Positions 47,803-63,808 of a stretch of 64,000 bases of DNA are shown here, in pieces (positions within the stretch are counted from its first letter, which is position 1; each line of letters begins with the position of its first letter). A program made the position numbers and the translations under genes. The stretch is taken from assembly GCF_003261175.1 (NCBI RefSeq), contig NZ_QLNP01000067.1, positions 124,001 to 188,000 of the forward strand. Reading direction: 5' to 3'. The stretch is from Arthrobacter globiformis. Lineage in GTDB: Bacteria > Actinomycetota > Actinomycetes > Actinomycetales > Micrococcaceae. Below the pieces are notes generated by a model, which worked only from the letters and a program-made list of their open reading frames with translations, did no database searches and was not told the DNA's origin.

Positions 47803-48314
47803 CAGCCAAACACCCGGCGAAAGGCCAGAGGCTCGGGCAGGCTGGAGACCTCGCTGTTGATGATCCGCATGGCAAGTTGGTCGGCGAGGGCCTCGGCTGT
47901 GAATTCGGCGTCGTCTGTGTAGCTTCTGCGGCCGAGAGCCCGGAGGACCTCGACGCCGAGGTCCGGAAGGAATGCGGTGACCAAGTCTTCGCTCGGTTCC
48001 GCGAGGTCATGCTGAAGGATCATGTGGCTGAACTCGTGCAGGATGATCTGTTGCCGGTGCCAGCTGGATTTCACCGTTGCATGCAGGACTATGTCGCGGT
48101 CGGCACAGATGAGCCAGACGCCGCACAATTCGGATCCGCACATGCCAGGGAGTTCGTCAACGATGATGGGCCGGCCGCGTTGCACTTCCAGTTTGTTTTG
48201 GATGTACAGAAGAGTCGCGTCGTCGGGCAGACCGAAGCCGTGCTCCGCTCGCCGGGCTATCTTTCGGGCGTCACGATAGTTCATTGCTTCGGGCCGCCGG
48301 GGAGTGGGGAACAT
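47802..48314 (-). CDS. ImmA/IrrE-family metallopeptidase
   Basis: 170 residues with the zinc-protease motif HEFSHMIL at about residue 92 and a downstream acidic segment (DAEFTAEALADQLA) that can supply the third ligand. ImmA/IrrE peptidases cleave Xre-type repressors to release silenced genes. It is encoded between the MpaB-like and MAB_1171c-like genes with overlaps at both ends (start possibly at the internal Met 11, 48284). No Xre partner gene is present in the cluster itself. Confidence 0.8.
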   Translation of the reverse strand: MFPTPRRPEAMNYRDARKIARRAEHGFGLPDDATLLYIQNKLEVQRGRPIIVDELPGMCGSELCGVWLICADRDIVLHATVKSSWHRQQIILHEFSHMILQHDLAEPSEDLVTAFLPDLGVEVLRALGRRSYTDDAEFTAEALADQLAMRIINSEVSSLPEPLAFRRVFG

Positions 48315-49164
48315 TGACGGGACCGATTTGGTCCAGAGAATACCCGTTCGGGTAGAGGGACGAACCGGCTTTGCCGGGCGTGAAATGGGGCTGCTCCTTT
48401 AGCGGCCGACGACGGCATATCGCGTTGCGAATTATCAGTCCAGTTTTGAGGGCGGCTCGGGAAGTCCGGCTCGAGTTGGGGAGGCCGAGCGCCGCGGTGA
48501 GGCGGTCGTCGTCGAGCATTGTGCTGATGATGTGTTTGGCCAAAGGGCGCAGCGGAGCGGGCAGCCGACTTTGGAAGACCTGGACCGTGGCGTCCATGAG
48601 ATGCTGGCCTTCGGGGGATGGCGCGACATGCGCGGCCTCGTAGGCGTCAAAGAAGGCTTCGGCTTCAGCGTAGGTAGCAGGCATGCCGTCGATGTTCATC
48701 CGGGAGCCTAGTTCGGTGAAGAAGCGTGCGGCGGCCGCGAGCTCCGCAGCTGTGGGCTCGCGCCAGGAGTGCTTCTGGGTCCAGCGGATCGGAACCAAGA
48801 GCAGCGTGAGGAGTACGTAGAGGAAATCGTCTTTGTTGCCTGGGACATTGCGGTGAACCCTGTTGAGTAGGGCAACCATGTCGCGGCCGCGGTCGCTGTC
48901 CAGTCCGCTGGCGATGAGCTCGTAGATGACGATGGCGGTGTCGTAGGAGCGCTTCATGGGGCGCTGCTGGATCTCAGCGTTGCTGTGCAGTGTTGACGCG
49001 ATGGTCGGGATGGCGAAATTGCGGTAGTAGGAGAGGAAGAAGCCGAGTTCCATGTCCGCGGCGAGATCGAAGAGAGCCATGTTGCGGAAGGTGGCTTCCC
49101 AGTCCTGCGGCTGGGCATCTTCCTGACGGCGTAGGCTCGCGGCGGGCGACTCATGAAGATTCAT
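48271..49164 (-). CDS. MpaB-like oxygenase-family protein (DUF2236)
   Basis: 297 residues, entirely helical, with the pattern of the DUF2236/MpaB group: ALFDLAADMELGFFLSYYRN near the N-terminus, VIYELIASGLDSDRGRDMV, and VHRNVPGNKDDFLYVLLTLL. Family members include latex-clearing protein and mycophenolic acid MpaB, which bind heme or act on lipids; here the heme ligand cannot be confirmed. It is the first gene of a three-gene minus-strand operon. Confidence 0.7.
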   Translation of the reverse strand: MNLHESPAASLRRQEDAQPQDWEATFRNMALFDLAADMELGFFLSYYRNFAIPTIASTLHSNAEIQQRPMKRSYDTAIVIYELIASGLDSDRGRDMVALLNRVHRNVPGNKDDFLYVLLTLLLVPIRWTQKHSWREPTAAELAAAARFFTELGSRMNIDGMPATYAEAEAFFDAYEAAHVAPSPEGQHLMDATVQVFQSRLPAPLRPLAKHIISTMLDDDRLTAALGLPNSSRTSRAALKTGLIIRNAICRRRPLKEQPHFTPGKAGSSLYPNGYSLDQIGPVNVPHSPAARSNELS

Positions 49165-49288
49165 CGTGCCCCTTTCCCGTGCCTGACAGTCCGCGCTCGA
49201 AGGAGGGGCCTCAGCTCCCCAGCTCGGCTGACCACCTCCATGGTAGGACTGTTGAATCCGCGTGGCTAGTCGATTGTAGACGGGTCTA

Positions 49289-49798
49289 CTATGCGTTCGC
49301 TGTTGCCTGCTTTGCCAGCGTCTTGACCAAGCCCTTTTCTCCCTGACGCATCATCAGCGCATGGGCGGTCGTGAAGGCAGGGGCGGCGATCGGTGTCAGG
49401 AGATTCATCCAGCGTTGAGTGGGGCGGACGCGCCATTCGATGTCCATACGCGTCGCTTCACCTTGCTTTTCGGGGGTGAGCACTACTCGCCCGGTGCCAC
49501 TCAAATGTCCGCCGGCGTCGAAGTCTATCTCCCGAGGCGCAACGACATCTGTGGGGTGAATGCTGATGGTGAGCGTGTAACCTAACGATGCCTTGAAGTT
49601 GAGGTGGGCGGTGGTCGCCTTGAGGATGTCTTCCTGGGAATTGCTCATGGGCTTAGTGCGAACCAGCGGCCCGGCGAAGCTGCAGTGTGGCCACCAACTG
49701 GGCCAGCTCATGTTGATGTCGGCAATGATGGCCCACACCTTCTCCGGCGGCATGGGGAGGTGCCAGGTGGAACTGAGGTCGAAGAGGCGCGCGGGCAT
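49289..49798 (-). CDS. SRPBCC-family protein (polyketide cyclase/START-like)
   Basis: 169 residues from ATG 49798 (MPARLFDLSSTWHLPMPPEK); the longer upstream frame is not protein-like. It has the SRPBCC helix-grip pattern: VWAIIADINMSWPSWWP, then beta-rich segments (LGYTLTISIHPTDV, GTGRVVLTPEKQGEATRMDIEWRV) and a long C-terminal helix. Such proteins bind hydrophobic ligands. It is upstream of the MpaB-like operon on the same strand with 124 bases between them. Confidence 0.75.
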   Translation of the reverse strand: MPARLFDLSSTWHLPMPPEKVWAIIADINMSWPSWWPHCSFAGPLVRTKPMSNSQEDILKATTAHLNFKASLGYTLTISIHPTDVVAPREIDFDAGGHLSGTGRVVLTPEKQGEATRMDIEWRVRPTQRWMNLLTPIAAPAFTTAHALMMRQGEKGLVKTLAKQATANA

Positions 49799-50190
49799 GT
49801 AGATATTTTGGCACGAGGTGTATGCGGGCAGGCTGCACCGTGGTCTTCCATGTGCCGAGGATTGCAGGACGCTGACCCGAGACAAGGCGCCACCTCCCTG
49901 GCATCGGAAGAAGCATCGCGTTCCAATATCAGCAGCTTGTGCACAGTCTCTGTGCTCGCATGGTCGTTCGAGAGATTCCCTGTCGGTGGGTGTGCTGACC
50001 TCAATTCGCTGGAGAGGCAAAAAGGAACCAGATGCCACACTGCTGCCCCTGCTGCCAGGGACCGAGCCGGTGGTGTCAGGTTCTGGTCTGAGAGTTTGCC
50101 CGACCCACTGTCAGAAAAGACGAATCGGAGCCTATCCTCACAGACGTTCGGCAATGTAACTGACGTCAGGTTGGGGTGTGCTTCAACTTA
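49799..50190. other. Interval without a supported gene
   Basis: About 390 bases; frames on both strands are Arg/Pro/Ser-rich and lack start signals. It holds the promoter region of the SRPBCC gene; no specific element identified. Confidence 0.35.
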
Positions 50191-50693: not shown

Positions 50694-52199
50694 CTAACTG
50701 GCGTAGGGGTCGTTGATGCCGATGTATTGGGTGGTGGTGTATTCGGCGATGCCTTCGGTGCCGCCTTCGCGGCCGAGGCCGGATTGTTTGACGCCGCCGA
50801 AGGGTGCTGCGGCGTTGGAGATGATGCCGGCGTTGAGGCCGACCATGCCGAATTCGATTTGTTCGGCCACGCGCAGGAGGCGGTTGAAGTCGCGGCTGTA
50901 GAGGTAGGAGGCGAGGCCGTATTCGGTGGCGTTGGCCTGCCGGATGGCGTCTTCCTCGGTGCTGAACGTGGTGACCGGGGCGACGGGGCCGAAGATTTCC
51001 TGGCGGAGGATCTCGGCGTCGTTGGGGACGTCGCCCAGCACGGTGGGCTGGTAGAAGTAGCCAGGTCCGTCCACGGGGGAGCCGCCGGTGATGGCGGTGG
51101 CTCCGGCGCCGACGGCGGCACTCACCAGGGCGTGCACGTCATCCCGGGCGCCGGCATCGATGAGGGGGCCGACCTGGGTTTCGGGTTCGGTTCCGCGGCC
51201 GGTGGCCAGGGCGCCCATGGCGGCGGCGAACTTGGCTGTGAACTCGGCGGCGACGGTTTCGTGGACGAGGAAGCGGTTGGCGGCGGTGCAGGCTTCGCCC
51301 ATGTTCCGCATCTTGGCGGCCATGGCCCCTTCGACCGCCTTGTCCAGGTCGGCGTCTTCGAACACGATGAAGGGTGCGTTGCCGCCGAGTTCCATGGAGG
51401 TGCGCAGGACGTTCTGGGCGGCGTCGGCCATGAGGCGCTTGCCCACGGGGGTGGAGCCGGTGAACGAGACTTTCCGGAGCCGCGGGTCGGCCAGCAGCGG
51501 CCCGGAGATCCCCGAAGCGCTGGAGGAAGAGACGACGTTCAGGACGCCGGCGGGCAGGCCGGCGTCGAGCATGGTCTGCGCGAAGTACTGGGCGGTGAGC
51601 GGGGTGAGTTTGGCGGGTTTGAGGACCATGGTGCAGCCAGCCGCCACAGCTGGTGCGACCTTGCGGGTGGCCATGGCGAGCGGGAAGTTCCAGGGGGTGA
51701 TGAGCAGGCAGGGGCCGACGGGCTTGTGCTGGACGAGGATCTTGTTCTTGCCCTCGGGGGTGGTGAGGTAGCGGCCGTAGTCGCGGACGGTTTCTTCGGA
51801 GAACCAGCGCAGGAATTCGGCCCCGTAGGTGACTTCGCCGCGGGCCTCGGCGAGCGGCTTGCCCATCTCCAGGGTCATCAGCAGCGCGAAGTCCTCGGCG
51901 CGTTCGGTGACCAGGTCAAAGGCGCGGCGCAGAATCTCGGCGCGTTCCCTGGGTGCGGTCCGGGCCCAGGAGGCCTGAACCGCATCGGCCGCGTCGAGCG
52001 CGGCGACGGCGTCCTCGCTGGTGGCCGAGGCGAGGGTGGCGAGTACCTCCCCGGTGGCGGGATCGTGCACGTCAAACGTGCCGCCGTCGGACGCATCCCG
52101 CCACTGGCCGTTGATGAGCAGGCCGGTCGGCACCGATGCCAGCAGGGATGACTCACGCTCGGGGGTAATGGCAGGGGAAAGGGCAAGGGTCAGAGACAT
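50694..52199 (-). CDS. gabD: NAD(P)-dependent succinate-semialdehyde dehydrogenase
   Basis: 501 residues of the aldehyde dehydrogenase superfamily: cofactor segment LLITPWNFPLAMATRKVAPA, glycine motif FTGSTPVGKRL, catalytic Glu in ELGGNAPF, catalytic Cys in GEACTAANR and the C-terminal GVKQSGLGREGG. The GabD-like pattern predicts oxidation of succinate semialdehyde to succinate. Encoded after the BCCT transporter and flavin reductase genes, it would be the last step of the proposed ring-cleavage pathway, feeding the TCA cycle. Confidence 0.88.
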   Translation of the reverse strand: MSLTLALSPAITPERESSLLASVPTGLLINGQWRDASDGGTFDVHDPATGEVLATLASATSEDAVAALDAADAVQASWARTAPRERAEILRRAFDLVTERAEDFALLMTLEMGKPLAEARGEVTYGAEFLRWFSEETVRDYGRYLTTPEGKNKILVQHKPVGPCLLITPWNFPLAMATRKVAPAVAAGCTMVLKPAKLTPLTAQYFAQTMLDAGLPAGVLNVVSSSSASGISGPLLADPRLRKVSFTGSTPVGKRLMADAAQNVLRTSMELGGNAPFIVFEDADLDKAVEGAMAAKMRNMGEACTAANRFLVHETVAAEFTAKFAAAMGALATGRGTEPETQVGPLIDAGARDDVHALVSAAVGAGATAITGGSPVDGPGYFYQPTVLGDVPNDAEILRQEIFGPVAPVTTFSTEEDAIRQANATEYGLASYLYSRDFNRLLRVAEQIEFGMVGLNAGIISNAAAPFGGVKQSGLGREGGTEGIAEYTTTQYIGINDPYAS

Positions 52200-52285
52200 G
52201 GTGCTCCATTGGGAATGGTCGTGAACAGGTGGTTGAGCCTGCCGAATGACTTCGGAGGCTCAACCACCCGCTGGGGAATGAGGTG

Positions 52286-53965
52286 TTATGGCTGGGGTGT
52301 GAGGATCCGGTTGAGGTCGCCTTGGGTGACGGACTTAGTCCGGTCGAACCGGGGGTCGTTCCTGAGTTCCTTGACCAGGCCCACGCCTAGGAGGGCGACG
52401 ATCACGGTGAACGGCAGGGCCGAGAGCATGGCGGCCTGCTGGAGGGCGCCCAGACCGCCGACGATGAGGAGCACCACGGCGCACAGGCCGGTCAAGAGCC
52501 CCCAGATAGTCAGGACAGGCTTGGTGGGGTTTAGTGTTCCGCGGGAGGACATCATGCTCAGGACGAAGGTGTTCGCGTCCGCGCCGGAGACGAAGTACAT
52601 CACTACCAGGATGATGGCGACGATGGAGGTGAGGCCGGACAGGGGAAGTTCGGCGAGCGTGGCGAAGAAGGCGGAGTTGACGTCGTCGAGGGCGGCGGCG
52701 CCGATCTTCCCGCCGTTTTCCATGTCGAACTTGATGGCCGTGCCGCCAAAGATGGTGAACCAGACGAAGAAGACGACGCTGGGGACGATCATGACGCCTG
52801 CGACGAATTCGCGGATGGTTCGTCCCTTGGAGATCTTGGCGAGGAATACGCCGACGAAGGCGCCCCAGCTCAGCCACCAGGCCATCATGAAGTAAGTCCA
52901 CCACTGCATCCACTGGACATCCTCGGGTGTGCCTGGGGTGAGCAGGCTGACGGCGAAGAAGTCGCTGAGGTATGTGCCGAGGGAGCGGAAGAAGAGGTTG
53001 GAGATGAAGTTGGTGGGTCCGGTGAATAGCACATAGAGTCCGAGCCCGACGGACAGAACCATGGTGCCCTGGCTGAGGTACTTGACGCCGCGGTTGACGC
53101 CGGACAGGGCTGACAGTGTGAAGATCACGGTGATGACGGCGATGATGAGGATCTGTCCCAGCAGGCTGGAGGGAATGCCGAATACACGGTTTACTCCTTC
53201 GCCGATCTGCGAGGCGCCGAGTCCCAGGGACGTGGTGGTTCCGAACAGCGTGGCGATGATGGCGAAGACGTCGATCATCTTGCCGAACCAGCCATCGACC
53301 AGCTTGCCGAAAATCGGGCGGAGCATGGGGGACACCAGGCCGGGGTTGTTGCGGCAGTGTGTGGAGTAAGCGATTGCGAGGCCGAAGACCCCGAAGACTG
53401 CCCAGGCGTGCGGGCCCCAGTCGAAGTAGGAGAACTGCATGGCGCGGATCGCGGCGTCCATGGTGCCGGCTTGGGCGAGGCCGTGCGGCGGGGAAGCGAA
53501 GTGGGAGATGGGTTCGGCGACGCCGTAGCTGATGAGTCCGATTCCCATGACTGCTGAGAGGATCATTGCCAGCCATGCCCAGGTGCTGAACTCGGGCTTG
53601 GCGTCCTGGGCGCCGAGGCGGAGGCGTCCGAACCGGCTGACGGCGACGTAGATGAGCAGTCCGATGCAGCCGAGGGTAACCACCAGGTAGCTCCAGCCGA
53701 CGCTCTGAGCTACCCAGTCCATGGCTGCGGTCATCACGCCATTGAGGCTTGTGGAGGAGAGGGATGCCCAGGCCGTGAAGGCGCCGATGAGTCCGACTGA
53801 CGTCCAAAAGACGGCCCCGGGCCTGTTTCGAAGGCGGTCCGCCTCGGCCAGGGATGTTTCGGTTATTGGTCGGGTGCCGTTGGGGGAGGCAAGGATGGTT
53901 GGGCTTTCGTCCGTGCCTGGGCTTTTCGTTTCCATCAGGTCCTCGGCATTTTGTGTGTGGGTCAT
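52286..53965 (-). CDS. BCCT-family betaine/carnitine/choline transporter
   Basis: About 559 residues from ATG 53965 (SD TGGAG; an upstream ATG at 53983 is possible). Twelve membrane helices are evident. BCCT signatures include GIGLISYGVAEPISHF, the FDWGPHAWAVFG Trp/Gly stretch and WTYFMMAWWLSWGAFVGVFLA. These carriers import quaternary ammonium or zwitterionic compounds with Na+ or H+. The island context suggests import of an N-methylated or betaine-like substrate such as trigonelline; the exact ligand cannot be told. Confidence 0.9.
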   Translation of the reverse strand: MTHTQNAEDLMETKSPGTDESPTILASPNGTRPITETSLAEADRLRNRPGAVFWTSVGLIGAFTAWASLSSTSLNGVMTAAMDWVAQSVGWSYLVVTLGCIGLLIYVAVSRFGRLRLGAQDAKPEFSTWAWLAMILSAVMGIGLISYGVAEPISHFASPPHGLAQAGTMDAAIRAMQFSYFDWGPHAWAVFGVFGLAIAYSTHCRNNPGLVSPMLRPIFGKLVDGWFGKMIDVFAIIATLFGTTTSLGLGASQIGEGVNRVFGIPSSLLGQILIIAVITVIFTLSALSGVNRGVKYLSQGTMVLSVGLGLYVLFTGPTNFISNLFFRSLGTYLSDFFAVSLLTPGTPEDVQWMQWWTYFMMAWWLSWGAFVGVFLAKISKGRTIREFVAGVMIVPSVVFFVWFTIFGGTAIKFDMENGGKIGAAALDDVNSAFFATLAELPLSGLTSIVAIILVVMYFVSGADANTFVLSMMSSRGTLNPTKPVLTIWGLLTGLCAVVLLIVGGLGALQQAAMLSALPFTVIVALLGVGLVKELRNDPRFDRTKSVTQGDLNRILTPQP

Positions 53966-54083
53966 GGCGTACTCCAGATGCAAGGTTGCATGGGGTTGAA
54001 GTTGGTGATTCCCGGGCGGGGGGGACCCGGGTGTCTGGCCCGCCGGCTGCTGGCCGGGTCAGGACGATGATGGCACCTGAGGG

Positions 54084-55034
54084 TCAGAGTTCCTCGAGCT
54101 GCGCACCGTCGAAGAAGAGGCCTGCCTTGTAGATCATGGGGTCCACGTCGGCGACTTCGGCGTGCCGGACCCGGCCGACGAAGATCGTGTGGGTTTTGGC
54201 CTGGAAGCGCTCCTTTATTTCCGCCTCCAGCGATGCTGCAGACCCGTCGATGAGCGGTACGCCGTTGGGGCCGGCATGCCATTCCAGATCGGCGAACTTG
54301 TCCTGGGTCTTCGAAGCGAAGGTCTTGACCGTCCCAAGCTGGTTGTTGCTGAGGATGTTGATTCCAAAGTGCGAGGACTGGAACAGCGCGGGGTACGTCG
54401 ACGACGTCTTCTGGACGCAGACGAGAACCAGCGGCGGGTCCAGGGAAATGGACGCGTAGGAGTTGGCGGCAAGACCCTTGGGGGTGCCCTCCTCGTCAAC
54501 GGTGGTCACGACAGTGACGCCGGTGATGAACTGCCGGTTGAATCCCTTCATGATGTCCTGCGGAAGGTTGCCGGACAGGTTGTCAACGATGACATCCGGG
54601 GTTTCATCCTCGAAGGCGGAGCCGAGGGACGGGATGCCCACGTGGGCGAGAAGTTCGACGGCGTCCCAGGTCACCTGTTCGTAGGCGATGCGCCCGTCCC
54701 GGAGAGTCAGCGCATTGGAGCCGCGGGTTTCCACGACGCGGCCTGTGGGCGGGACACCCCGAAGGGGGTGGGTGAAGGTTCCAGTCGACTTCCAGAAGAT
54801 GGCCATGTCATCACCGCTGGCGATGACTTTCTCGATGCGGGTGGTCAGGTCGGGAAAAGCGGCCCGGACATCGAGGATTTCCTGCTGCAGTTCCTTCAGT
54901 CCGCACACCTTCTTCGTGCCGGTGCTCTCACGCTGGTAGTCGGCGGTCACGATCGCGTCGAACGCGGTGACATCACCCTCGTCCCAAGCTGCGGTCCAAG
55001 CGGCGGTTACGGCGTCGTTGAGTGTCTCTTGCAT
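54084..55034 (-). CDS. SnoaL-like / flavin reductase fusion protein
   Basis: 316 residues from ATG 55034. Residues 1-140 form a SnoaL/ester-cyclase-like domain (AAWTAAWDEGDVTAFDAIVT, FWKSTGTFTHPLRGVPPTGR). Residues 160-316 are a split-barrel flavin reductase (FNRQFITGVTVVTTVDEEGT, GLAANSYASISLDPPLVLVC, HFGINILSNNQ, HTIFVGRV). It probably supplies reduced flavin to the luciferase-like monooxygenase at 59618-60685. The fusion with SnoaL is unusual. It is divergent from the GntR gene and heads the BCCT-gabD unit. Confidence 0.82.
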   Translation of the reverse strand: MQETLNDAVTAAWTAAWDEGDVTAFDAIVTADYQRESTGTKKVCGLKELQQEILDVRAAFPDLTTRIEKVIASGDDMAIFWKSTGTFTHPLRGVPPTGRVVETRGSNALTLRDGRIAYEQVTWDAVELLAHVGIPSLGSAFEDETPDVIVDNLSGNLPQDIMKGFNRQFITGVTVVTTVDEEGTPKGLAANSYASISLDPPLVLVCVQKTSSTYPALFQSSHFGINILSNNQLGTVKTFASKTQDKFADLEWHAGPNGVPLIDGSAASLEAEIKERFQAKTHTIFVGRVRHAEVADVDPMIYKAGLFFDGAQLEEL

Positions 55035-55116
55035 GCCACAACGGTAAGGCCGGGTGTGATCTACGTCAATAGCTACACCCGAAAACGCCACTAGACCCCT
55101 AAAAGACAGCAGTCTC

Positions 55117-55146
55117 TTGACGGCCGTGTTGTATGCAACGTAGGTT
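55117..55146 (+). promoter_or_regulatory. GntR-gene promoter with embedded operator, apparently leaderless
   Basis: TTGACG (55117-55122) and TAGGTT (55141-55146) are separated by 18 bases, and the ATG at 55153 lies only six bases after the -10, so the mRNA may be leaderless. The near-palindrome GTTGTATGCAAC (55128-55139) sits between the two boxes, a position suited to autorepression by the GntR protein. Confidence 0.5.
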
Positions 55147-55152
55147 TGATGC

Positions 55153-55860
55153 ATGCAAGAAGTCATTCAGTTGCGAAAGGGCGTTCCGGCGTCCGCGAAC
55201 CAGGCCAGCATTTTGGACAAGCTCCGGAAGCTGGTCCTCAGCGGCGAGTATCCTCCGGGAGCGCCTCTGCCGGAGCTCTTCCTTGCCGACCAGTTCGAGG
55301 TGAGCCGGACACCGGTGCGTGAAGCCTTGAAGCAGCTGGAAAACGAGGGCCTGGTGGAGATCAGGCCCAAGGTAGGGACCTTCGTCCGAATCCCGACCCG
55401 GCGCGAGATCGTTGAGCTCTTCCAGCTCAAGGAGAGCCTCGAAGGTCTGGCCGCCAGCCTCCTCGCCCGGCGCGGTACGGTGCCGGAGCTTGACATCCTC
55501 AAGCGCAACATCGAGGAATCAGAGCGTGCTGAGCGACGTGCTGACGCCGCGACATACGCCGAACTCGTCCACGAGTTCCACTGGACGATTGTCAAGGGTT
55601 CGGATAACTCCAAGCTCGCCGAGCACTACGGGCGCCTCATGAACCAGCTTGCCTACCACCGGATTGTCCTCGAAACCGTTGAGCGTCCGGCCCGGATGCG
55701 CGCTTCCATCCGCGAACACCAGTCTGTGGTCGATGCCCTCATGGAAAAAGACCCTGTTGGCGCCGAGCTCGCCATGCGGGGCCACGTCAGCGCCTCCAGC
55801 TTGGCCGCGGCACGGGGCGCAGACACCGGCAACGCCGCCGGCGAAAAAACACAAGCTTAG
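55153..55860 (+). CDS. GntR-family (FadR/FCD) transcriptional regulator
   Basis: 235 residues. The N-terminal winged helix (LRKLVLSGEYPPGAPLPE, FEVSRTPVREALKQLENEGL, VEIRPKVGTFVR) is classic GntR, and the C-terminal all-helical FCD domain has metal-ligand-type histidines (VHEFHWTIV, HYGRLMNQLAYHRIV, EHQSVVDAL). It lies at the divergent centre of the catabolic island and likely senses a pathway substrate or intermediate. Gene start overlaps its own promoter; no separate leader. Confidence 0.9.
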   Translation: MQEVIQLRKGVPASANQASILDKLRKLVLSGEYPPGAPLPELFLADQFEVSRTPVREALKQLENEGLVEIRPKVGTFVRIPTRREIVELFQLKESLEGLAASLLARRGTVPELDILKRNIEESERAERRADAATYAELVHEFHWTIVKGSDNSKLAEHYGRLMNQLAYHRIVLETVERPARMRASIREHQSVVDALMEKDPVGAELAMRGHVSASSLAAARGADTGNAAGEKTQA

Positions 55861-55913
55861 TCACCGAAGGGAACCCCATGACTGCCACTAGCTCCCCAAA
55901 GAAGGGTTGAACC

Positions 55914-56582
55914 GTGTCCGAGACAACAATCATCCCCGTGGCCGAAGGAACCAACCTCGCGTCGGCGATTGAAGAACTCGCCCGGGAAGTCGGGGTCCGC
56001 AAGGTCACCGTGCTGACGGAGGAAATCCTCCGTGACGGGTCGGGAGCCCTGGCCACCAGCGTGACCAGGGCTGCCGCCGCCGCCGTCATCCGCAACCCAT
56101 GGAGCGGCTCGGCTGTCTCCACTGACCTGGCACCCGAAACCGAACGCATAGCTCCCGTTCTCGCCAAAGTTCTCACCGACCGCCTCACAGCAGCCCTCGG
56201 AGGCGCCGGCGAGATCGAGGCGTTCGGCAAATCCGCCGTTGTCGGGCTGAAGGGCGAAGTTGAACACGCCGCAGCGCTCATCCACACGCCCTACTTCGGA
56301 AACCTGGTCCGTGAGTTCCTCGAAGGCACATCAATCCTCTCCTTCTCGGACGAACGGGCAGAGCCCGGAACCACGATCGCCGTGCCGATGTGGCACAAGG
56401 AAGCCGCCTCCACACGAAGCCACTACCAGACCCTGACGCTGAACCTGAGCGATGCACCCCACCCCGACGAGATAGTTGTCATCGCCGCCGCCTCAACCGG
56501 TTCGCGCCCGCATCCCCGCATCGGTGACCGAACCACCGACCGACCCGTAACCGCTGAAATCCTGGAGGGAATCCTGCCGTGA
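55914..56582 (+). CDS. DUF1185 'amino acid synthesis' family protein (first copy)
   Basis: 222 residues from GTG 55914 (SD GAAGGG), following a 10-codon mini-ORF (55878-55910, MTATSSPKKG). The body matches the DUF1185 family: VRKVTVLTEEILRDGSG, AAAAVIRNPWSG, EAFGKSAVVGLKGEVEHAAAL and SDAPHPDEIVVIAAASTGSR. The biochemical role of this family is not well established. The next gene encodes a second, shorter member, and the GTGA overlap shows coupled translation, so the two may form a heteromer. Confidence 0.8.
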   Translation: MSETTIIPVAEGTNLASAIEELAREVGVRKVTVLTEEILRDGSGALATSVTRAAAAAVIRNPWSGSAVSTDLAPETERIAPVLAKVLTDRLTAALGGAGEIEAFGKSAVVGLKGEVEHAAALIHTPYFGNLVREFLEGTSILSFSDERAEPGTTIAVPMWHKEAASTRSHYQTLTLNLSDAPHPDEIVVIAAASTGSRPHPRIGDRTTDRPVTAEILEGILP

Positions 56583-57130
56583 AAATCCGCAAAATCGTTA
56601 CCCTGTCCGAAGAAATCCTGACCGAGGGCGGTCGCCCCGTAACCCCCGGAGCCCGGGTCGCGATCGCCGTTGCAGTCGTGGAAAACCCGTGGGCCGGCCA
56701 GGGCTTTGTAGAGGACCTGACCGAAGGCATCGATGCCATCGCCTCGGACCTCGGCGCGCTCCTCGCCCCCAAAGTCATCGAGGTGCTCGGCGCTCCCGTA
56801 GAGGCTTACGGCAAGGCCGCCATCGTCGGCATCGAAGGCGAGATCGAGCACGGCTCGGCGCTGATCCACACGCTGAAGTTCGGTGACCACTACCGCAAGG
56901 CCGCTTCCGCCACCACGCTGCTGCCCGCCGTCGAAAAGCGCGCACCCGCCGGCACGGTCTTCGACATCCCCATGAAGCACATCACCGACGCAACCATCCG
57001 CTCGCACCACCAAAGCGTGGAGGTCCGGGTGGCCGACGCACCCCACCCCGGCGAGATCCTCATCGCCCTGGCCGCGTCCGCGCAGGGACGGCCGCAGGAG
57101 CGCCTGGCGCCCCTGTCCACGGAGCAATGA
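56579..57130 (+). CDS. DUF1185 'amino acid synthesis' family protein (second copy)
   Basis: 183 residues from GTG 56579, overlapping the first copy by four bases. It shares its motifs (RKIVTLSEEILTEGG, VVENPWAGQGFVEDL, EAYGKAAIVGIEGEIEHGSA, ADAPHPGEILIALAASAQG) but lacks ~35 N-terminal residues. Duplication of the family in tandem suggests a two-subunit protein. A role in processing an N-containing intermediate is inferred only from the surrounding enzymes. Confidence 0.8.
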   Translation: MKIRKIVTLSEEILTEGGRPVTPGARVAIAVAVVENPWAGQGFVEDLTEGIDAIASDLGALLAPKVIEVLGAPVEAYGKAAIVGIEGEIEHGSALIHTLKFGDHYRKAASATTLLPAVEKRAPAGTVFDIPMKHITDATIRSHHQSVEVRVADAPHPGEILIALAASAQGRPQERLAPLSTEQ

Positions 57131-57867
57131 CCCAAGTGTCTGAAACGCCCATTGCCCTTCTGCACGGCGTCGGCCTTGACGCCAGCATGTGGGCCCCGGT
57201 TAGGGATGCCCTCAAGCGTGACTCAGTGGCCATCGACCTGCCGGGCCACGGACGGCAGCCAGCCCTGGCGGAACCAACCACCCTGGCCGAACTTGCCGAA
57301 GACGTGCTGGGCCGCCTCCCGGAGCGAAGCCACCTGGTGGGCTTTTCGCTCGGAGCACTGATCGCGCAGTACATCGCCAGGTTCCACCCCGACCGGATCG
57401 CGACTATGACCTGCGTGAACTCCGTCTGCCAGCGCACCGAGGACGAATCAAAGGCCGTCCTCAAGAGGCTGGAGGCGGCAGAGTCGGATTTCCCGGCCAC
57501 CGTCGAAGCCTCCATCGACCGCTGGTACACCGGCACGTCCGTGCCTGAAAGCGTTGTGGAAGCAACGCGCCGCACCCTGGAAGCGAACGACGTCGAATCC
57601 TTTGTGCACGCCTACCGCGTGTTCGCGGTCGGTGACGCGGTCATCGGTCCGGAGCTTGGCAGCGTCCAGGTGCCCACCCTCGCTGTCACCGGTGAGCTGG
57701 ACCCCGGATCAACGCCGGAGATGACCCGGCGCCTGGCAGCAGCGATCCCGGGTGCCAAGAGCCTCGTGGTTCCTGGCGCACGGCACATGCTGCCGGTCCA
57801 GAACGCTGACGTTTTGGCCGGGGCAATTAATGACTTCATCCAAGAATCGGAAGGAGAACGGGCATGA
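57127..57867 (+). CDS. Alpha/beta hydrolase (putative amidohydrolase or esterase)
   Basis: 246 residues. Oxyanion region LLHGVGLDASMWAP, nucleophile elbow VGFSLGALIA (Ser in G-x-S-x-G), acidic residue in VTGELDPGS and histidine in GARHMLPVQN form a standard triad. In pyridine and trigonelline catabolism a hydrolase removes the formamide or N-methylformamide group after ring opening; by position this enzyme is the best candidate. It is coupled by ATGA to both the DUF1185 gene and the aldehyde dehydrogenase gene. Confidence 0.85.
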   Translation: MTQVSETPIALLHGVGLDASMWAPVRDALKRDSVAIDLPGHGRQPALAEPTTLAELAEDVLGRLPERSHLVGFSLGALIAQYIARFHPDRIATMTCVNSVCQRTEDESKAVLKRLEAAESDFPATVEASIDRWYTGTSVPESVVEATRRTLEANDVESFVHAYRVFAVGDAVIGPELGSVQVPTLAVTGELDPGSTPEMTRRLAAAIPGAKSLVVPGARHMLPVQNADVLAGAINDFIQESEGERA

Positions 57868-59345
57868 CGCTCCGACTCGACCACTTCATCGGGGGTACCT
57901 GGTCTGCTCCCGCCGGCGGGGAATACTTCCCCAGTACCAACCCGGCAACGCTCGAGCTGCTGTATGAAGCGGCACGGGGAACCGAAGAGGACGTCCGCCG
58001 CGCCGTGGCAGCAGCCAAGGAAGCGTTCGAATCCCCGCTGTGGCGCGACCTCACGGCCACCAAGCGAGGCCACCTCCTCCGACGCCTCGGCGACCTGATC
58101 GGCGAGCACGCAGACGAGCTCGCGGAGCTGGAAACCCTGGACAACGGCAAGCTGCTGCGCGAGATGCGCGGCCAGCTCGCCTCTCTGCCCGAGTACCTCT
58201 ACTACTACGCCGGGCTGGCGGACAAGGTCCAGGGCAGCCAGATCCCCACCAACTCGATCACCATGCTGAACTACACCCAGCGCGAACCCCTCGGCGTCGT
58301 CGGGGCCATCACCCCCTGGAACTCGCCCCTGACACTGACCACGTCCAAGCTGGCCCCGGCCCTGGCCGCCGGCAACACCGTGGTCATCAAGCCCAGCGAG
58401 TACACCTCGCGGACCATCCTGCGGGTCGCCGAGCTGGCATCCCAAGCAGGGTTCCCCGACGGCGTCGTGAACGTCGTCACCGGCTTCGGGCAGGAAGCCG
58501 GCGCCGCGCTGGTAAGCCACCGCGACCTGGCAAAGATCTCCTTCACCGGATCTACGGCGACCGGTGCCCGCATTGCCGCGGAAACGGCGTCGCGCTTTAT
58601 CGGTTCAACCCTTGAGCTCGGCGGCAAGAGCCCCAACATCGTGTTCGAGGACGCCGACGTGTCCAACGCGGCGATGGGCGTCATCGCCGGGATCTTCGCA
58701 GCAGCGGGCCAGACCTGCATCGCCGGCAGCCGCGTCTTCGCCCACCGCAGCGTCTACGACGAACTCGTCGAACGCGTCGCCGAACGCGCGGCGTCTATCA
58801 TCATCGGTGACCCGCGGCTGGCCACCACCGAACTCGGACCCCTCGCCTTCGGCGCCCAGCTGGACAAAGTGAGCTCCTACGTGGACATCGGCGTCAGCGA
58901 GGGCGCGACAGTCCGGACCGGAGGCAAGCGCCCAGACATCGAACTCCCGGGTTACTTCTTCGCACCCACCGTCCTGACCGACGTCGACAACTCCATGCGC
59001 GTCGTACGGGAAGAGATTTTTGGACCGGTCGCCGCAATCATGCCCTTCGACTCCGAGGACGAGGTTGTCGGCCTCGCCAACGACACCGAGTACGGGCTCG
59101 CTGCCGGCATATGGACGCAGAACCTGGCCCGGGCCCACAGGATGGCCCGCCGGCTGGAAGCAGGCACGGTGTGGGTCAACACTTACCGCGCCATGTCCCC
59201 GATGTCGCCGCGGCAGGGGTTCAAGAACTCCGGTGTTGGCATCGAGCACGGACTCGAGTCCATGCACGACTACACCCGGCTCAAGAGCGTCTGGATCAAC
59301 ACCGACGAAGGTCCCGTCTCCGACCCGTTCGTCCTGCGCAGCTAA
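57864..59345 (+). CDS. Aldehyde dehydrogenase
   Basis: 493 residues with the full ALDH motif set: GAITPWNSPLTLTTSKLAPA, FTGSTATGARIA, catalytic Glu in ELGGKSPNIVFEDAD, catalytic Cys in GQTCIAGSR and the late EEIFGPVAAIMPF. It is a different subfamily from the gabD product at 50.7 kb and probably oxidises the unsaturated or amido-aldehyde formed by ring cleavage. It shares a four-base overlap with the hydrolase gene and precedes the tautomerase gene. Confidence 0.88.
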   Translation: MTLRLDHFIGGTWSAPAGGEYFPSTNPATLELLYEAARGTEEDVRRAVAAAKEAFESPLWRDLTATKRGHLLRRLGDLIGEHADELAELETLDNGKLLREMRGQLASLPEYLYYYAGLADKVQGSQIPTNSITMLNYTQREPLGVVGAITPWNSPLTLTTSKLAPALAAGNTVVIKPSEYTSRTILRVAELASQAGFPDGVVNVVTGFGQEAGAALVSHRDLAKISFTGSTATGARIAAETASRFIGSTLELGGKSPNIVFEDADVSNAAMGVIAGIFAAAGQTCIAGSRVFAHRSVYDELVERVAERAASIIIGDPRLATTELGPLAFGAQLDKVSSYVDIGVSEGATVRTGGKRPDIELPGYFFAPTVLTDVDNSMRVVREEIFGPVAAIMPFDSEDEVVGLANDTEYGLAAGIWTQNLARAHRMARRLEAGTVWVNTYRAMSPMSPRQGFKNSGVGIEHGLESMHDYTRLKSVWINTDEGPVSDPFVLRS

Positions 59346-59356
59346 AGGAACCCGAA

Positions 59357-59557
59357 ATGCCTCTCATCGAAGTGTCCATCGCCCGGGGCCGGACCCCCGA
59401 GCAGCTCCGCTCGCTCATCAACGAGCTGCACCTGGCCGCAGAAAAAGCTGTCGGGGCGGTCCCTGAAAACACCACCGTCATCGTCCGCGAAATCGAACAC
59501 GAGCACTGGTCCCGCGGCAACCAAACCATCGCCGAACGCAACGCGGCTGCCACCTAG
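59357..59557 (+). CDS. 4-oxalocrotonate tautomerase-family protein
   Basis: 66 residues starting MPLIEVSIARGRTPEQLRSL; Pro-2 would become the N-terminal catalytic base after Met removal. AAAGGAA precedes the ATG. Size and sequence (IARGRTPEQL, NTTVIVREIEHEHWSRG) fit the small tautomerases that isomerise enols or dienols in ring-degradation pathways. It could convert an enamide or enol intermediate made by the monooxygenase. Confidence 0.85.
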   Translation: MPLIEVSIARGRTPEQLRSLINELHLAAEKAVGAVPENTTVIVREIEHEHWSRGNQTIAERNAAAT

Positions 59558-59617
59558 GCAGGCTGCAGCCACCAATTTACGCGCAGGCGAAAATCGCCGC
59601 AGAACGAAGGAGTAACA

Positions 59618-60685
59618 ATGCGCTTTTCCCTCTTCGTCCACATGGAACGATGGGACGATTCCGTCTCCTACCAGGAATGCTTCGAGAACCTGACGGAACT
59701 CAGCCTCATCGCGGAGGCCGGCGGCTTCAGTACCGTCTGGATCGGCGAGCACCACTCCATGGAATACACCATCTCACCGAGCCCCATGCCCCAGCTCGCC
59801 TACCTGGCGGCGCGGACCTCGAAAATCCGTCTGGGCGCCGGGACCATCATCGCGCCGTTCTGGAACCCGCTCCGGGTAGCGGGCGAGTGCGCGCTCCTGG
59901 ACGTCATCAGCAACGGCCGGATGGAAGTGGGCCTGGCCCGCGGCGCCTACCAGTTCGAATTTGACCGGATGCTGGGCGGCATGTCAGCGGTCGACGGCGG
60001 CAAGCACCTCCGCGAGCTCGTCCCGGCAGTCCGCGCCCTCTGGGAAGGCGACTACGCTCACGACGGCGAGGTCTGGCAGTTCCCCACCTCCACCAGCATC
60101 CCCAAGCCCGTCCAAAAGCCGACCCCGCCCATGTGGATCGCAGCCCGCGACATCTCCTCCCACGAGTTCGCCGTCGCTAACGGGTGCAACGTCATGGTCA
60201 CGCCCCTGATGAAGGGCGACGAGGAAGTCGAAGACCTGGCACGCAAGTTCGACACCGCCGTGGAGAACAACCCCGGCGTCCCCCGCCCCGACCTCATGGT
60301 CCTCCGGCACACCCACGTCCACTCCGCCGACGAGCCCGAAGGCTGGCGCCGCCCCGCCGAAGGCATCAACAAGTTCTACCGCACCTTCGACGCCTGGTTC
60401 GGCAACAAGACCACCCCCGTCAACGGCTTCCTCGAGCCCAGCCCCGAAGAAAAGTTCGCCGAGCGTCCGGAATTCAGTCCCGAATCCCTCCACAAGACCG
60501 CCATGATCGGGACGCCCGACGAAGTCATCGAACGCCTCCGTCGCTACGAGGCACTTGGCGTCACTGAATTCAGCGTCTGGTCTGACAACAGCCTCACCCA
60601 CGAAGAAAAGAAGCGCTCACTCGAGCTCTTCATCGAACATGTGGTACCGGCCTTCCAGGAACAACCCGCCGCCGTTTCCATCTGA
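59618..60685 (+). CDS. Luciferase-like flavin-dependent monooxygenase (putative ring-cleaving)
   Basis: 355 residues with GAAGGAG upstream. The LLM fold is evident: MRFSLFVHMERWDD at the start, AEAGGFSTVWIGEHHSMEY (the conserved EHH), RLGAGTIIAPFWNPLRVAGE, then LLDVISNGRMEVGLARGAYQFEFDRMLGG. Group members include bacterial luciferase and the pyridine and trigonelline ring-cleaving oxygenases. It needs reduced flavin, likely from the fused reductase at 54084. It is the last gene of the plus-strand operon. Confidence 0.88.
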   Translation: MRFSLFVHMERWDDSVSYQECFENLTELSLIAEAGGFSTVWIGEHHSMEYTISPSPMPQLAYLAARTSKIRLGAGTIIAPFWNPLRVAGECALLDVISNGRMEVGLARGAYQFEFDRMLGGMSAVDGGKHLRELVPAVRALWEGDYAHDGEVWQFPTSTSIPKPVQKPTPPMWIAARDISSHEFAVANGCNVMVTPLMKGDEEVEDLARKFDTAVENNPGVPRPDLMVLRHTHVHSADEPEGWRRPAEGINKFYRTFDAWFGNKTTPVNGFLEPSPEEKFAERPEFSPESLHKTAMIGTPDEVIERLRRYEALGVTEFSVWSDNSLTHEEKKRSLELFIEHVVPAFQEQPAAVSI

Positions 60686-61116: not shown

Positions 61117-61455
61117 TCAGATCGCCTCGACACCGCGTTCTCCCGTGCGGACACGAATGACGTTGGAGATGTCCTGTGTCCAGATTTTCCCGTCCCCAAG
61201 GCTTCCAGTTCGTGCTGCCATCACAATGGTTTGAATGACTCCTTCTGCGTCTTCGTCCGTGACGATTAGGTCGATACGAACCTTGGGGCGGAAGTCCACC
61301 TGAAACTCCGTGCCTCTGTACATTTCTGTGTGCCCCTTTTGCACTCCGTAGCCTTTTACGTCACTGACCGTGAGGCCCGTGTGCAGGGTGTCGGCCAGAG
61401 CGTTCTTGACTTGCTCTAACCTGTAGGGCTGGATGACTGCTGTGACGATCTTCAT
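61117..61455 (-). CDS. glnK: PII nitrogen-regulatory protein GlnK with Phe at residue 51
   Basis: 112 residues, standard PII length. Core motifs VTAVIQPYRLEQVKNAL, DVKGYGVQKGHTEMYRG and the ATP-binding TGSLGDGKIW and VRTGERGVEA are intact. In the T-loop the usual EY at 50-51 is EF (RGTEFQVDF), so residue 51, the Tyr modified by GlnD in most PII proteins, is Phe. Tyr-46 is kept. It lies 41 bases downstream of the ammonium transporter gene and would gate that channel. The absence of the modification site suggests control by effector binding only. Confidence 0.92.
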   Translation of the reverse strand: MKIVTAVIQPYRLEQVKNALADTLHTGLTVSDVKGYGVQKGHTEMYRGTEFQVDFRPKVRIDLIVTDEDAEGVIQTIVMAARTGSLGDGKIWTQDISNVIRVRTGERGVEAI

Positions 61456-61496: not shown

Positions 61497-62741
61497 CTAT
61501 TCCACCTCGGCGTAAGCCGATTCAGCATGTAGTGTCAGATCCAGGCCGCGGTGTTCGGTTTCTTCATCGACCCGGATGTTCATAACTTTGTTTAAAGTCC
61601 AGGCGATCGCGTACGTGGCGATGAACGCATAAAGACACGTTGCTGCAATAGCGATCAGTTCTCTCCACAGAATGCTCCAGTCCCCTCCGAAAACGAGACC
61701 TGTCACGCCTGCGGGTGCTGACTTTGCTCCAATCAGCACTACGCACAGTGTCCCTACGATGCCGCCGATGCCGTGGACTGCGAAGGCGTCGAGGGTGTCA
61801 TCGACTCCCCACTTCTGCTTCCATGTAATGGCCCAGCAGACAACTGCCCCGGATGCGGCACCAACAGCGAGTGCGCCGAGAGGATTTACGGCATCGGCGG
61901 ATGGAGTGATGCCGACCAAGCCGGCAATGGCGCCGGTTGCGAGTCCGAGAGCAGACGGGCGTCCATCCCGCACCCGCTCGATTGCGAGGTATCCGATTAT
62001 GCCGGCGCAGCCTGCCAGGAGTGTGGTCATCACGACGTATTGGGACAAGAAGTTGGCTCCTGCAGCCGACCCGCCATTGAATCCGAACCACCCAAACCAC
62101 AGGATTCCTGCTCCCAGGATGGCGAAGGGAAGGTTATGAGGCTTCGCTTGGGGGGCCTTGCTTTTTCCTAGGACGAGGGCAAGTGCGAGGGCGCCTACAC
62201 CTGCCGTCATGTGCACCGCAGTGCCGCCAGCGAAGTCGTGGAGGTGAACGACGTTGCGCAGCCACCCGCCGACGTAACCGGTCTCTTCGTCCGTGTAGGT
62301 GAACACCCAGTGGGCGATGGGAAAGTAGACGACCGTCAGCCAAATGGCGCTGAAAATTATCCACGCGCCGAATCTCATCCGCCCTGCGGCTCCGCTGGCA
62401 ACGATGGCTACGGTTATCGCGGCAAACAGGACGAAGAAGGCGGCCCAGTATATCGACTGTGGACCGCCGCTTCCGTCGTCACTCTCAAAGCCGATCATCC
62501 CGAAAAATTCGAATGGGTTGCCGACAATGCCCAGGCCGGCAACGGAGTTTCCCGAAACCATGCCGTATCCGTACAGAACGTAGAGGATGGCAGTGACAGC
62601 GAGGGTGCTCAGCACCATCATGAACATGTTGAGAATGTTGTTTTTCCCGAGCAGCCCGCCGTAATAGAAGGCAAGCCCGGGGAACATGAGCGCTACAAGG
62701 GCGAAGGCGGCCAGAAGCCACGCGAGGTCTGCCTGTGGCAT
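61497..62741 (-). CDS. amtB: Ammonium transporter Amt
   Basis: 414 residues, eleven membrane helices. Amt family features include the N-terminal LALVALMFPGLAFYYGGLLG-type helix and GNPFEFFG, the pore-type WVFTYTDEETGYVGGWLRNV, VHLHDFAGGTAVHMTAGVGA, and late AVHGIGGIVG. It takes up ammonium from outside or recaptures ammonium released in the cytoplasm. It is followed by glnK and preceded by a heme-dependent N-demethylase gene, pointing to amine-derived nitrogen. Confidence 0.93.
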   Translation of the reverse strand: MPQADLAWLLAAFALVALMFPGLAFYYGGLLGKNNILNMFMMVLSTLAVTAILYVLYGYGMVSGNSVAGLGIVGNPFEFFGMIGFESDDGSGGPQSIYWAAFFVLFAAITVAIVASGAAGRMRFGAWIIFSAIWLTVVYFPIAHWVFTYTDEETGYVGGWLRNVVHLHDFAGGTAVHMTAGVGALALALVLGKSKAPQAKPHNLPFAILGAGILWFGWFGFNGGSAAGANFLSQYVVMTTLLAGCAGIIGYLAIERVRDGRPSALGLATGAIAGLVGITPSADAVNPLGALAVGAASGAVVCWAITWKQKWGVDDTLDAFAVHGIGGIVGTLCVVLIGAKSAPAGVTGLVFGGDWSILWRELIAIAATCLYAFIATYAIAWTLNKVMNIRVDEETEHRGLDLTLHAESAYAEVE

Positions 62742-62818: not shown

Positions 62819-63808
62819 TCAGTTGAGCAACCAGGCGGCAGCGGCGGCCCGGTAGTCGCTTACTCCCTTGTAGGCTGCAATGTCTTCCGGAGTGGACATC
62901 AGTATTTGGGCCAGCTGGTCCCGCCATGCGGGAATGGCCTTGATCTCCTCAAGTGAAGCCATGTAGGTGCGGATGCTGAACGTCACCGCTCCTGACATCG
63001 GAAGACGAATGAAGTGCTCCAATTCGATGCGGAGCTGCAAGTTCCCGAAGTTGCGTTCCGCGACGAGCCGCGGGATGTCCTGGCCCCATTCCGGCAGCTC
63101 TTCGAGACTGATGTCCAGCTTGCGGGAGCCTGAGGCGGAGAGCGTCCAGTTGACTCTGCGGAACACCTGGTCTGCCGGTAGCCGCATGAGGAACTGTTCC
63201 GCCCTCGAGGTGATGCCCTCGCGGGTGAGTCTTGGCACCGGTTGGTGGATTTCGGTGAAACTCATGCCGGCGTCGAAGGTGACCGACCAGGCGGCAGCAA
63301 AGGTGACAAGACCTGCGTCGAAGTGCATTTGCCCGCCGCGCTCCTTGACCAGGAGCAGATCGTCCGGAATCTCCCTTCCCAGGAAGGTCATCGGGTCGTG
63401 CTGCAGCGACGATTCATCGCCTACGACGAAGGTTTGGTCCGTGCCGAGGAGGTGGTTTTGCCACCGGACGAGGTCGCCGTCCTCGTGCAGTTGCATGTGC
63501 TCCGGATGGGTGATGGCCAGGTCTCTGAGGTAGTACATCAGCAGGTCCCAGCAGGCCGGCATCATGCCGGGCAGGATTTGGACCCTGTCGGGGTCGGCGG
63601 CAAGGATGCGGCGGCGTTCCTTCATGATGTGCGCGTAGTCATCTCCGCCAAGGTCGACGATGTTGGCACCCCATTCGCCTCCAGCGGTCTTTTTGCGCAT
63701 GCGCGCAGGCTCGACGTTGACGCTGTACTGGAAGTCCTGCTGGTCTTCGGCGAAGGGCCACGGCAAAGTCGTGGTGTATTTCGTGCCTTCGGAAATGTTG
63801 GTGCTCAT
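62819..63808 (-). CDS. Heme-dependent oxidative N-demethylase (DUF3445)
   Basis: 329 residues of the DUF3445 family, the group that includes dimethylamine monooxygenase subunits and heme-dependent oxidative N-demethylase. Characteristic segments: an N-terminal PWPFAEDQQDFQYSVNVEPA, central MQLHEDGDLVRWQN and a C-terminal FRRVNWTLSASGSRKLDISL followed by helices. The overlap with the upstream ferredoxin-domain gene (ATGA) means it is made together with its electron donor. The likely reaction is removal of methyl groups from secondary or tertiary amines; the substrate is not determined. Confidence 0.85.
   Translation of the reverse strand: MSTNISEGTKYTTTLPWPFAEDQQDFQYSVNVEPARMRKKTAGGEWGANIVDLGGDDYAHIMKERRRILAADPDRVQILPGMMPACWDLLMYYLRDLAITHPEHMQLHEDGDLVRWQNHLLGTDQTFVVGDESSLQHDPMTFLGREIPDDLLLVKERGGQMHFDAGLVTFAAAWSVTFDAGMSFTEIHQPVPRLTREGITSRAEQFLMRLPADQVFRRVNWTLSASGSRKLDISLEELPEWGQDIPRLVAERNFGNLQLRIELEHFIRLPMSGAVTFSIRTYMASLEEIKAIPAWRDQLAQILMSTPEDIAAYKGVSDYRAAAAAWLLN

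Follow-up and report, generated by a model that had tools for sequence, protein, structure and literature searches.

An actinobacterial gene cluster that probably encodes ring cleavage of trigonelline or a very close N-methylpyridinium carboxylate and is linked to methylamine genes in part of its range

Which compound is broken down by the products of a ten-gene island (positions 50694–60685) in a 64-kb stretch of Arthrobacter globiformis DNA (hereinafter the window)? Trigonelline (N-methylnicotinate) is a plant betaine whose breakdown has been worked out in a gammaproteobacterium; the tgn pathway of Acinetobacter baylyi ADP1 was reportedly described by Perchat et al. 2018. A preliminary description of the island saw in it the logic of pyridine/trigonelline ring cleavage, and our analysis supports that view: the island probably serves ring-cleavage catabolism of trigonelline or a very close N-methylpyridinium carboxylate, as a conserved actinobacterial variant that is linked to methylamine use in part of its range. 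A literature search of open-licence papers found no account of this cluster in actinobacteria.

Gene families were assigned by Pfam, and NCBIfam model cut-offs were also applied. The left arm of the island, on the minus strand, comprises a succinate-semialdehyde dehydrogenase (SSADH)-like aldehyde dehydrogenase (ALDH), a BCCT transporter and a fusion of a SnoaL-like domain with a flavin reductase; the right arm, on the plus strand, comprises a GntR/FCD regulator, two AA_synth/DUF1185 paralogues (AAs1 and AAs2), an alpha/beta hydrolase, a second ALDH, a tautomerase and a luciferase-like flavin monooxygenase (LLM; Table 1). By family, a two-component flavin monooxygenase, a semialdehyde dehydrogenase, an alpha/beta hydrolase and an SSADH are all encoded together. 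The enzyme types listed in the preliminary description are borne out by strong Pfam scores for ten genes, with one amendment: the reductase is a SnoaL fusion, a domain the description did not name, and it probably starts near 55034 rather than 55166 because a close relative (L020) begins there. Both ALDHs have, on direct reading, the Glu and Cys of the expected motifs. Among the NCBIfam matches shown, no island enzyme scores above a model cut-off and only a general BCCT subfamily model passes, so function has to be drawn from context.

That context is highly conserved. A scan of genome contigs yielded 541 LLM relatives, the best 80 of which, from 64 actinobacterial and 16 Pseudomonas loci, were used. 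Counting a core gene as present at at least 30% identity and E ≤ 1e-8 (tblastn), we found the clustered ALDH and LLM in all 64 actinobacterial loci, the flavin reductase, AAs1, AAs2 and hydrolase in 63 each, the GntR regulator in 62 and the tautomerase in 58 (and in 0/16 Pseudomonas loci). The core of one locus (L056) consists of ALDH, tautomerase and LLM only; tblastn detected no tautomerase in L053, L064, L066, L070, L075 and L081, and no GntR in L075. Because the core genes occur in 58 to 64 of the 64 loci, whose hosts include Arthrobacter, Sinomonas, Streptomyces, Mycobacterium, Nocardia, Nocardioides and others, the gene set is more than a chance assembly. A relative of the SSADH-like ALDH at at least 60% identity is present in 13/64. 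In a census at E ≤ 1e-60, LLM was found in nine of 61 genomes of the genus, our own included, and in none of 38 genomes from other genera of the order. One of these nine (G002; L025, 13309–14577) has a 90% identical LLM frame that matches query residues 38–348 only, the other cluster genes being absent in 19 kb.

To relate the island to the tgn pathway, we drew 12 proteobacterial (hereinafter tgn-type) loci from a plasmid collection, 11 chosen among the top 40 of 1261 records that matched LLM and the twelfth (L140) from DUF1185 matches; A. baumannii L013 stands in for the ADP1 Tgn proteins, and likeness to tgn is measured by gene set and such stand-ins. The window LLM is 50–55% identical to the 12 tgn-type proteins (51% to that of A. 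baumannii) and 77–80% identical to the Pseudomonas proteins. In the LLM tree it groups with actinobacteria and Pseudomonas (support 99/97), apart from the tgn-type clade, with the placement of two long branches unsure. The hydrolase is more diverged (28–33% identical to tgn-type and 35–37% to Pseudomonas sequences), yet S74, R103, R114, R132, W133, D170 and D192 are invariant in 67/67 actinobacterial, 8/8 Pseudomonas and 12/12 tgn-type sequences, as is H220 apart from a gap in one actinobacterial row (66/67, 8/8 and 12/12). Three arginines kept invariant in all three groups despite 28–33% identity are what would be expected if an acidic substrate were shared; by analogy with acetamidomethylene-succinate hydrolase (3KXP, E 1.3e-4), they may bind a carboxylate. 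A common substrate is likely, though not certain.

A better pointer to an N-methylated substrate than the BCCT carrier lies beyond the island. The preliminary description closed the stretch at 60685, which cut it short: genes for a P-II regulator (PII), an ammonium transporter (Amt) and an N-demethylase subunit follow (Table 1), and methylamine genes lie past the window end. The downstream stretch of the same genome (L134, 998–15510) encodes PII, Amt and two sets of haem-dependent N-demethylase proteins that include Dmm-like subunits. Next come a type III glutamine synthetase (585 bits to TIGR03105, whose cut-off is 470), MgsA-, MgsB- and MgsC-like proteins in a row (by family, glutamine-amidotransferase-like, GXGXG and Glu_synthase), an oxidase of the DAO family and a protein resembling allantoate amidohydrolase. 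Type III synthetases are a kind that we take to include gamma-glutamylmethylamide synthetase (GMAS), and the names GMAS and Mgs are given here from family and gene order. Breakdown of trigonelline would release methylamine, whereas that of pyridine would not.

This association recurs. Across the genus, MgsC is present in 15/61 genomes, namely 7/9 with LLM versus 8/52 without (Fisher P = 4e-4, uncorrected for kinship); the two genes are 11 kb apart in our genome, 3.4 kb apart in G028 and 3.1 kb apart in G045, and in the other four MgsC is far away or on another contig. At a threshold of at least 40% identity and within flanks of up to 10 kb (1.28 Mb searched overall), a GMAS or Mgs gene accompanies LLM in 12 of the 64 actinobacterial loci, six from Arthrobacter (L029, L032, L035, which is G028, L037, L038, which is G045, and L041) and six from Streptomyces (L049, L054, L056, L062, L070 and L078, the last with MgsC only), with gaps of 0.7–9.8 kb and varied arrangements. 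Fewer than 0.1 would be expected from the genus density, at which the Streptomyces loci were also scored. The linked loci carry an NCS1 permease (6), a BCCT transporter (5) or neither (1). GMAS/Mgs genes also lie 6.7 kb from the cluster in Azospirillum (L017), the only such case among the 12 proteobacterial loci.

An N-methylated substrate is thus better supported by the linked methylamine genes than by the BCCT carrier from which it was originally deduced; the substrate class stands, but the argument from BCCT does not. Counted over the entire fetched loci, beyond the slot adjoining the reductase, 31 of the 64 actinobacterial loci have a BCCT transporter alone and 26 an NCS1 permease alone, with both present in five and neither in two. 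In L020, whose cluster genes are 84–97% identical to those of the window, an NCS1 permease and an isochorismatase-family hydrolase take the place of BCCT, and the tgn-type transporters are equally mixed (BCCT in Thioclava L138, NCS1 in A. baumannii L013 and a 'cytosine' permease in Burkholderia multivorans L136). The transporter is exchangeable and of little diagnostic value alone, and the use of NCS1 permeases elsewhere rules out BCCT as proof of a betaine substrate. Isochorismatase-family hydrolases occur in 20/64 actinobacterial and 5/16 Pseudomonas loci (for example, L020 4955–5536 and L089 11360–12028) and might bring an amide, for example 1-methylnicotinamide, into the pathway.

The same chemistry might instead act on another N-methylated heterocycle, whether N-methylpyridinium, 1-methylnicotinamide entering through an isochorismatase-like amidase, or homarine; we consider this unlikely, though it is the best-placed of the alternatives. 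The separate LLM clade and the frequency of isochorismatase-family hydrolases would suit it. However, no such hydrolase is among the ten genes of the window, the excerpted part of PMC8269262 argues on steric grounds against homarine ring opening by TgnA/TgnB, and the invariant hydrolase arginines also count against it.

Somewhat less probable is a pyr-type cluster, in which LLM would open unsubstituted pyridine, ammonia rather than methylamine would be released and the neighbouring methylamine genes would be coincidental. Arthrobacter sp. 68b is said to degrade plain pyridine by a pyr pathway borne on plasmid p2MP, with a monooxygenase, flavin reductase, ALDH, amidohydrolase and SSADH, matching enzyme types, and such a plasmid cluster could share the gene set. 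The nearest plasmid copy, pDCT5 of A. dokdonellae (the only plasmid record more than 60% identical to LLM among the best 40 of 1261 matching records), has a 'cytosine permease' rather than BCCT and no GMAS/Mgs gene in 31 kb. Pyridine would nevertheless leave unexplained the recurrent GMAS/Mgs linkage in Arthrobacter, Streptomyces and Azospirillum, the co-occurrence of LLM and MgsC across the genus, the BCCT transporters of 36/64 loci and the retention of the hydrolase arginines. A Rut-like route, in which a RutA-like LLM would open a pyrimidine or cyclic amide with the reductase, the hydrolase and a chorismate-mutase-fold protein as RutF, RutD and RutC analogues, has parallel enzyme types and the NCS1 permease and isochorismatase of other strains to recommend it, but is very improbable and was rejected, since scores fall far below the model cut-offs (RutF 65 bits versus 255, RutD 37 versus 239, and the L020 and L089 isochorismatase proteins 22 and 67 versus 378 for RutB), no RutA model is among the best 25 of 28 LLM matches, RutB is not among the window matches listed, two ALDHs would have no place and the methylamine-gene link would go unaccounted for.

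Besides the reported pyridine plasmid, several observations weigh against assigning the island to trigonelline or its close analogue. The distance from the tgn-type proteins (LLM 50–55%, hydrolase 28–33%) and the LLM clade of its own may possibly reflect a related but different substrate, and the best structural match of the hydrolase is 3-oxoadipate enol-lactonase (2XUA, 4.7e-23) rather than an enamide hydrolase. GMAS/Mgs genes are out of reach in 52/64 actinobacterial and 11/12 proteobacterial loci and were not found in A. dokdonellae (L012, 31 kb), in the 16 Pseudomonas LLM loci or in eight Pseudomonas AA_synth loci; two of the nine LLM-bearing genomes of the genus have no MgsC, and four of the seven with both have them far apart. 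Even in our genome, the 11 kb between LLM and MgsC hold PII, Amt and N-demethylase genes, and the GntR motif described below is absent there. The rarity of the methylamine link outside actinobacteria slightly lowers our confidence in trigonelline, which nonetheless remains the probable substrate.

For trigonelline, the pathway would run as follows, through intermediates that are presumably those of the published tgn pathway. BCCT would import the zwitterion, and the flavin reductase would supply reduced flavin to LLM, whose opening of the pyridinium ring would yield an N-methylformamido semialdehyde. Oxidation by the clustered ALDH would then give N-methylformamidomethylene-succinate, which the alpha/beta hydrolase would split into formate, CO2, methylamine and succinic semialdehyde. 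Enol/enamine or lactone rearrangements are probably accelerated by the tautomerase and the SnoaL domain. SSADH would convert the semialdehyde to succinate, perhaps aided by the DUF1185 pair as TgnF reportedly aids TgnE, and methylamine would enter the GMAS–Mgs–oxidase (N-methylglutamate, NMG) route encoded nearby.

The DUF1185 pair was initially taken to be an extra step and to imply an undescribed reaction. Both proteins score well above the PF06684 gathering threshold of 27 bits (194 and 197 bits). In an excerpt of PMC7913881, TgnF from the trigonelline pathway of Acinetobacter is described as a homologue of a DUF1185-family protein and is said to stimulate the TgnE step; the excerpt adds that attempts to detect a comparable stimulation by HcdD all failed. 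In 12/12 proteobacterial clusters, including that of Sinorhizobium meliloti 1021 pSymA (L140), which also has GntR and SSADH, the genes follow the order AA_synth–hydrolase–flavin reductase–LLM–ALDH, which differs from that of the window. This association of DUF1185 with the monooxygenase and, as far as the excerpt goes, the TgnF homology led us to reject the idea that DUF1185 adds a step or an undescribed reaction to the pathway; what does set the island apart from tgn is the tautomerase, which the preliminary description also named as extra, together with the pairing of two diverged DUF1185 proteins and the SnoaL domain.

AAs1 and AAs2 each occur once in 71/73 actinobacterial loci (among the 73, six duplicate or overlap loci of the genus set), and in a tree of 62 sequences each forms a single group (100/99 and 94/91, respectively). 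When conserved positions are defined by at least 90% agreement among 20 rows from proteobacterial clusters, both paralogues retain 52 of them, AAs1 alone 10 and AAs2 alone 10, and 14 fall otherwise. Loss in this balanced, complementary manner fits a mixed oligomer without being proof of one, and the ancestral positions lost in AAs1 and in AAs2 are not separated between the N- and C-terminal halves of the protein (three cut points tried, Fisher P 0.18–0.37). A bolder proposal, which we put forward only tentatively, is that, in actinobacteria, the one DUF1185 protein known from trigonelline breakdown has divided into an obligate AAs1/AAs2 mixed oligomer with complementary loss of ancestral residues. 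Together with SnoaL and the tautomerase, this complex would be a true catalyst (for example, by channelling the unstable product of ring cleavage or by hydrolysing the enamine) in an N-methylpyridinium pathway coupled to methyl-nitrogen capture. In Shinella (L139, 18747–25035), a second AA_synth, an HTH protein, a flavin reductase, an ALDH and an LLM (44% identical) adjoin a tgn-type cluster as a further paralogous module.

The SnoaL–reductase fusion is present in the window, L012 and L020, while L049 and L069 have SnoaL in a different frame beside the reductase; SnoaL was not found in L013, L017 or L126, and Pfam also gave none in the L013 and L014 reductases. On A. dokdonellae pDCT5 (L012, 6881–7830), two genes within the cluster carry the annotations riboflavin kinase and NUDIX protein and may serve flavin supply.

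The 118-bp divergent region between the arms carries a motif pair at its two ends. TTGYATGCMA has exactly two matches in the 64-kb window against 0.29 expected, and 6/100 shuffles had at least two anywhere. A looser form, TTG-N(3-6)-CAA, to which the shuffle control does not extend, is present in 33/38 upstream regions of GntR proteins at least 62% identical (five genomes counted twice) and in 1/33 others. The GntR protein would repress both divergent transcripts through these two candidate operators, 100 bp apart. TTGYATGCMA is absent from the downstream stretch with the methylamine genes (L134), and a sigma-70-type promoter scan found none, with 1.1 expected.

Table 1 Features of the island, its divergent promoter region and the adjoining genes
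Feature	Position	Strand	Evidence or remark
SSADH-like ALDH (proposed TgnE/PyrD role)	50694..52199	-	PF00171; best NCBIfam TIGR01780 SSADH, 558 bits, below cut-off 646
BCCT-family transporter, proposed importer	52286..53983	-	PF02028 3.6e-169; TIGR00842 above cut-off
SnoaL-like domain + flavin reductase fusion	54084..55034 (probable start; open frame to 55166)	-	PF07366, PF01613
Candidate GntR operator TTGCATGCCA	55029..55038	+	TTGYATGCMA; overlaps probable reductase start
Candidate GntR operator TTGTATGCAA	55129..55138	+	TTGYATGCMA; upstream of gntR
GntR/FCD regulator, divergent from reductase	55153..55860	+	PF00392, PF07729
AAs1, AA_synth/DUF1185 paralogue	55914..56582	+	PF06684 194 bits
AAs2, AA_synth/DUF1185 paralogue	56579..57130	+	PF06684 197 bits
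Alpha/beta hydrolase (proposed TgnC role)	57127..57867	+	PF12697
ALDH (proposed TgnD/PyrB role)	57864..59345	+	PF00171; 46-48% identity to ALDH of L013-L017
4-oxalocrotonate-tautomerase-like protein	59357..59557	+	PF01361 7.5e-13; Pro after start Met
LLM, proposed ring-cleaving (TgnB role)	59618..60685	+	PF00296 2.3e-57
P-II nitrogen regulator-like	61117..61455	-	NF008111, NF007946, both below cut-off
Ammonium transporter	61497..62741	-	TIGR00836 405 bits, above cut-off
Haem-dependent oxidative N-demethylase alpha-like subunit	62819..63808	-	PF11927 8.9e-59; partners and methylamine genes beyond window end

Elsewhere in the window, an IS21-type transposase with its IstB helper lies upstream of the island (44472–46477), and MpaB/Lcp rubber-oxygenase-type and polyketide-cyclase-like proteins are encoded between the two (48271–50038). 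A 747-aa AAA_5 ATPase (31480–33723) may, at a guess from its Pfam match alone, be part of an McrBC-like restriction system.

The Pseudomonas pathway is split. LLM and the reductase, usually with an NCS1 permease (15/16 loci), stand at one place (L089, L099 and others), and a row of AA_synth, hydrolase, ALDH, reductase, carboxymuconolactone-decarboxylase (CMD) and GntR genes at a second (L126–L133), with an SSADH-like gene inserted in L128. AA_synth was found in 8/8 Pseudomonas genomes tested, of the 16, on the same contig as LLM and approximately 14–47 kb off in six, and on a different contig in G104 and G105.

Assigned in this way, the cluster gives actinobacteria (Arthrobacter, Streptomyces, Mycobacterium and Nocardia) a defined candidate trigonelline pathway and ties ring cleavage to methylamine use. 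It also offers a handle on DUF1185, a family of solved fold and unsettled reaction, through a conserved pair of such proteins encoded next to the enzymes of their pathway.

Compared with tgn of A. baylyi ADP1, the island shares the monooxygenase with its flavin reductase, an ALDH, an alpha/beta hydrolase, an SSADH and DUF1185. It differs in having two diverged DUF1185 proteins in place of one, the SnoaL–reductase fusion, the tautomerase and a BCCT importer, and no CMD-like or porin gene is among its ten, whereas A. baumannii L013 has a CMD-family gene and a presumed porin, the latter without a Pfam match. With the pyr cluster of 68b p2MP, the island reportedly has in common the enzyme types, the host group and succinate as end product, but the pyr substrate is said to be without an N-methyl group. 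AAs2 is a clear homologue of the DUF1185/AA_synth structures 2QTP (SPO0826; 1.3e-39) and 3BYQ (BB2672; 3e-24); unlike these proteins, which are homohexamers according to an excerpt of PMC2954203, the two co-occurring paralogues here may form a mixed oligomer. Finally, the genes downstream of the island resemble the NMG pathway in their GMAS-like synthetase, MgsA/B/C-like proteins and FAD oxidase, but here one protein of the DAO family makes up the oxidase, and the set lies near a ring-cleavage cluster.

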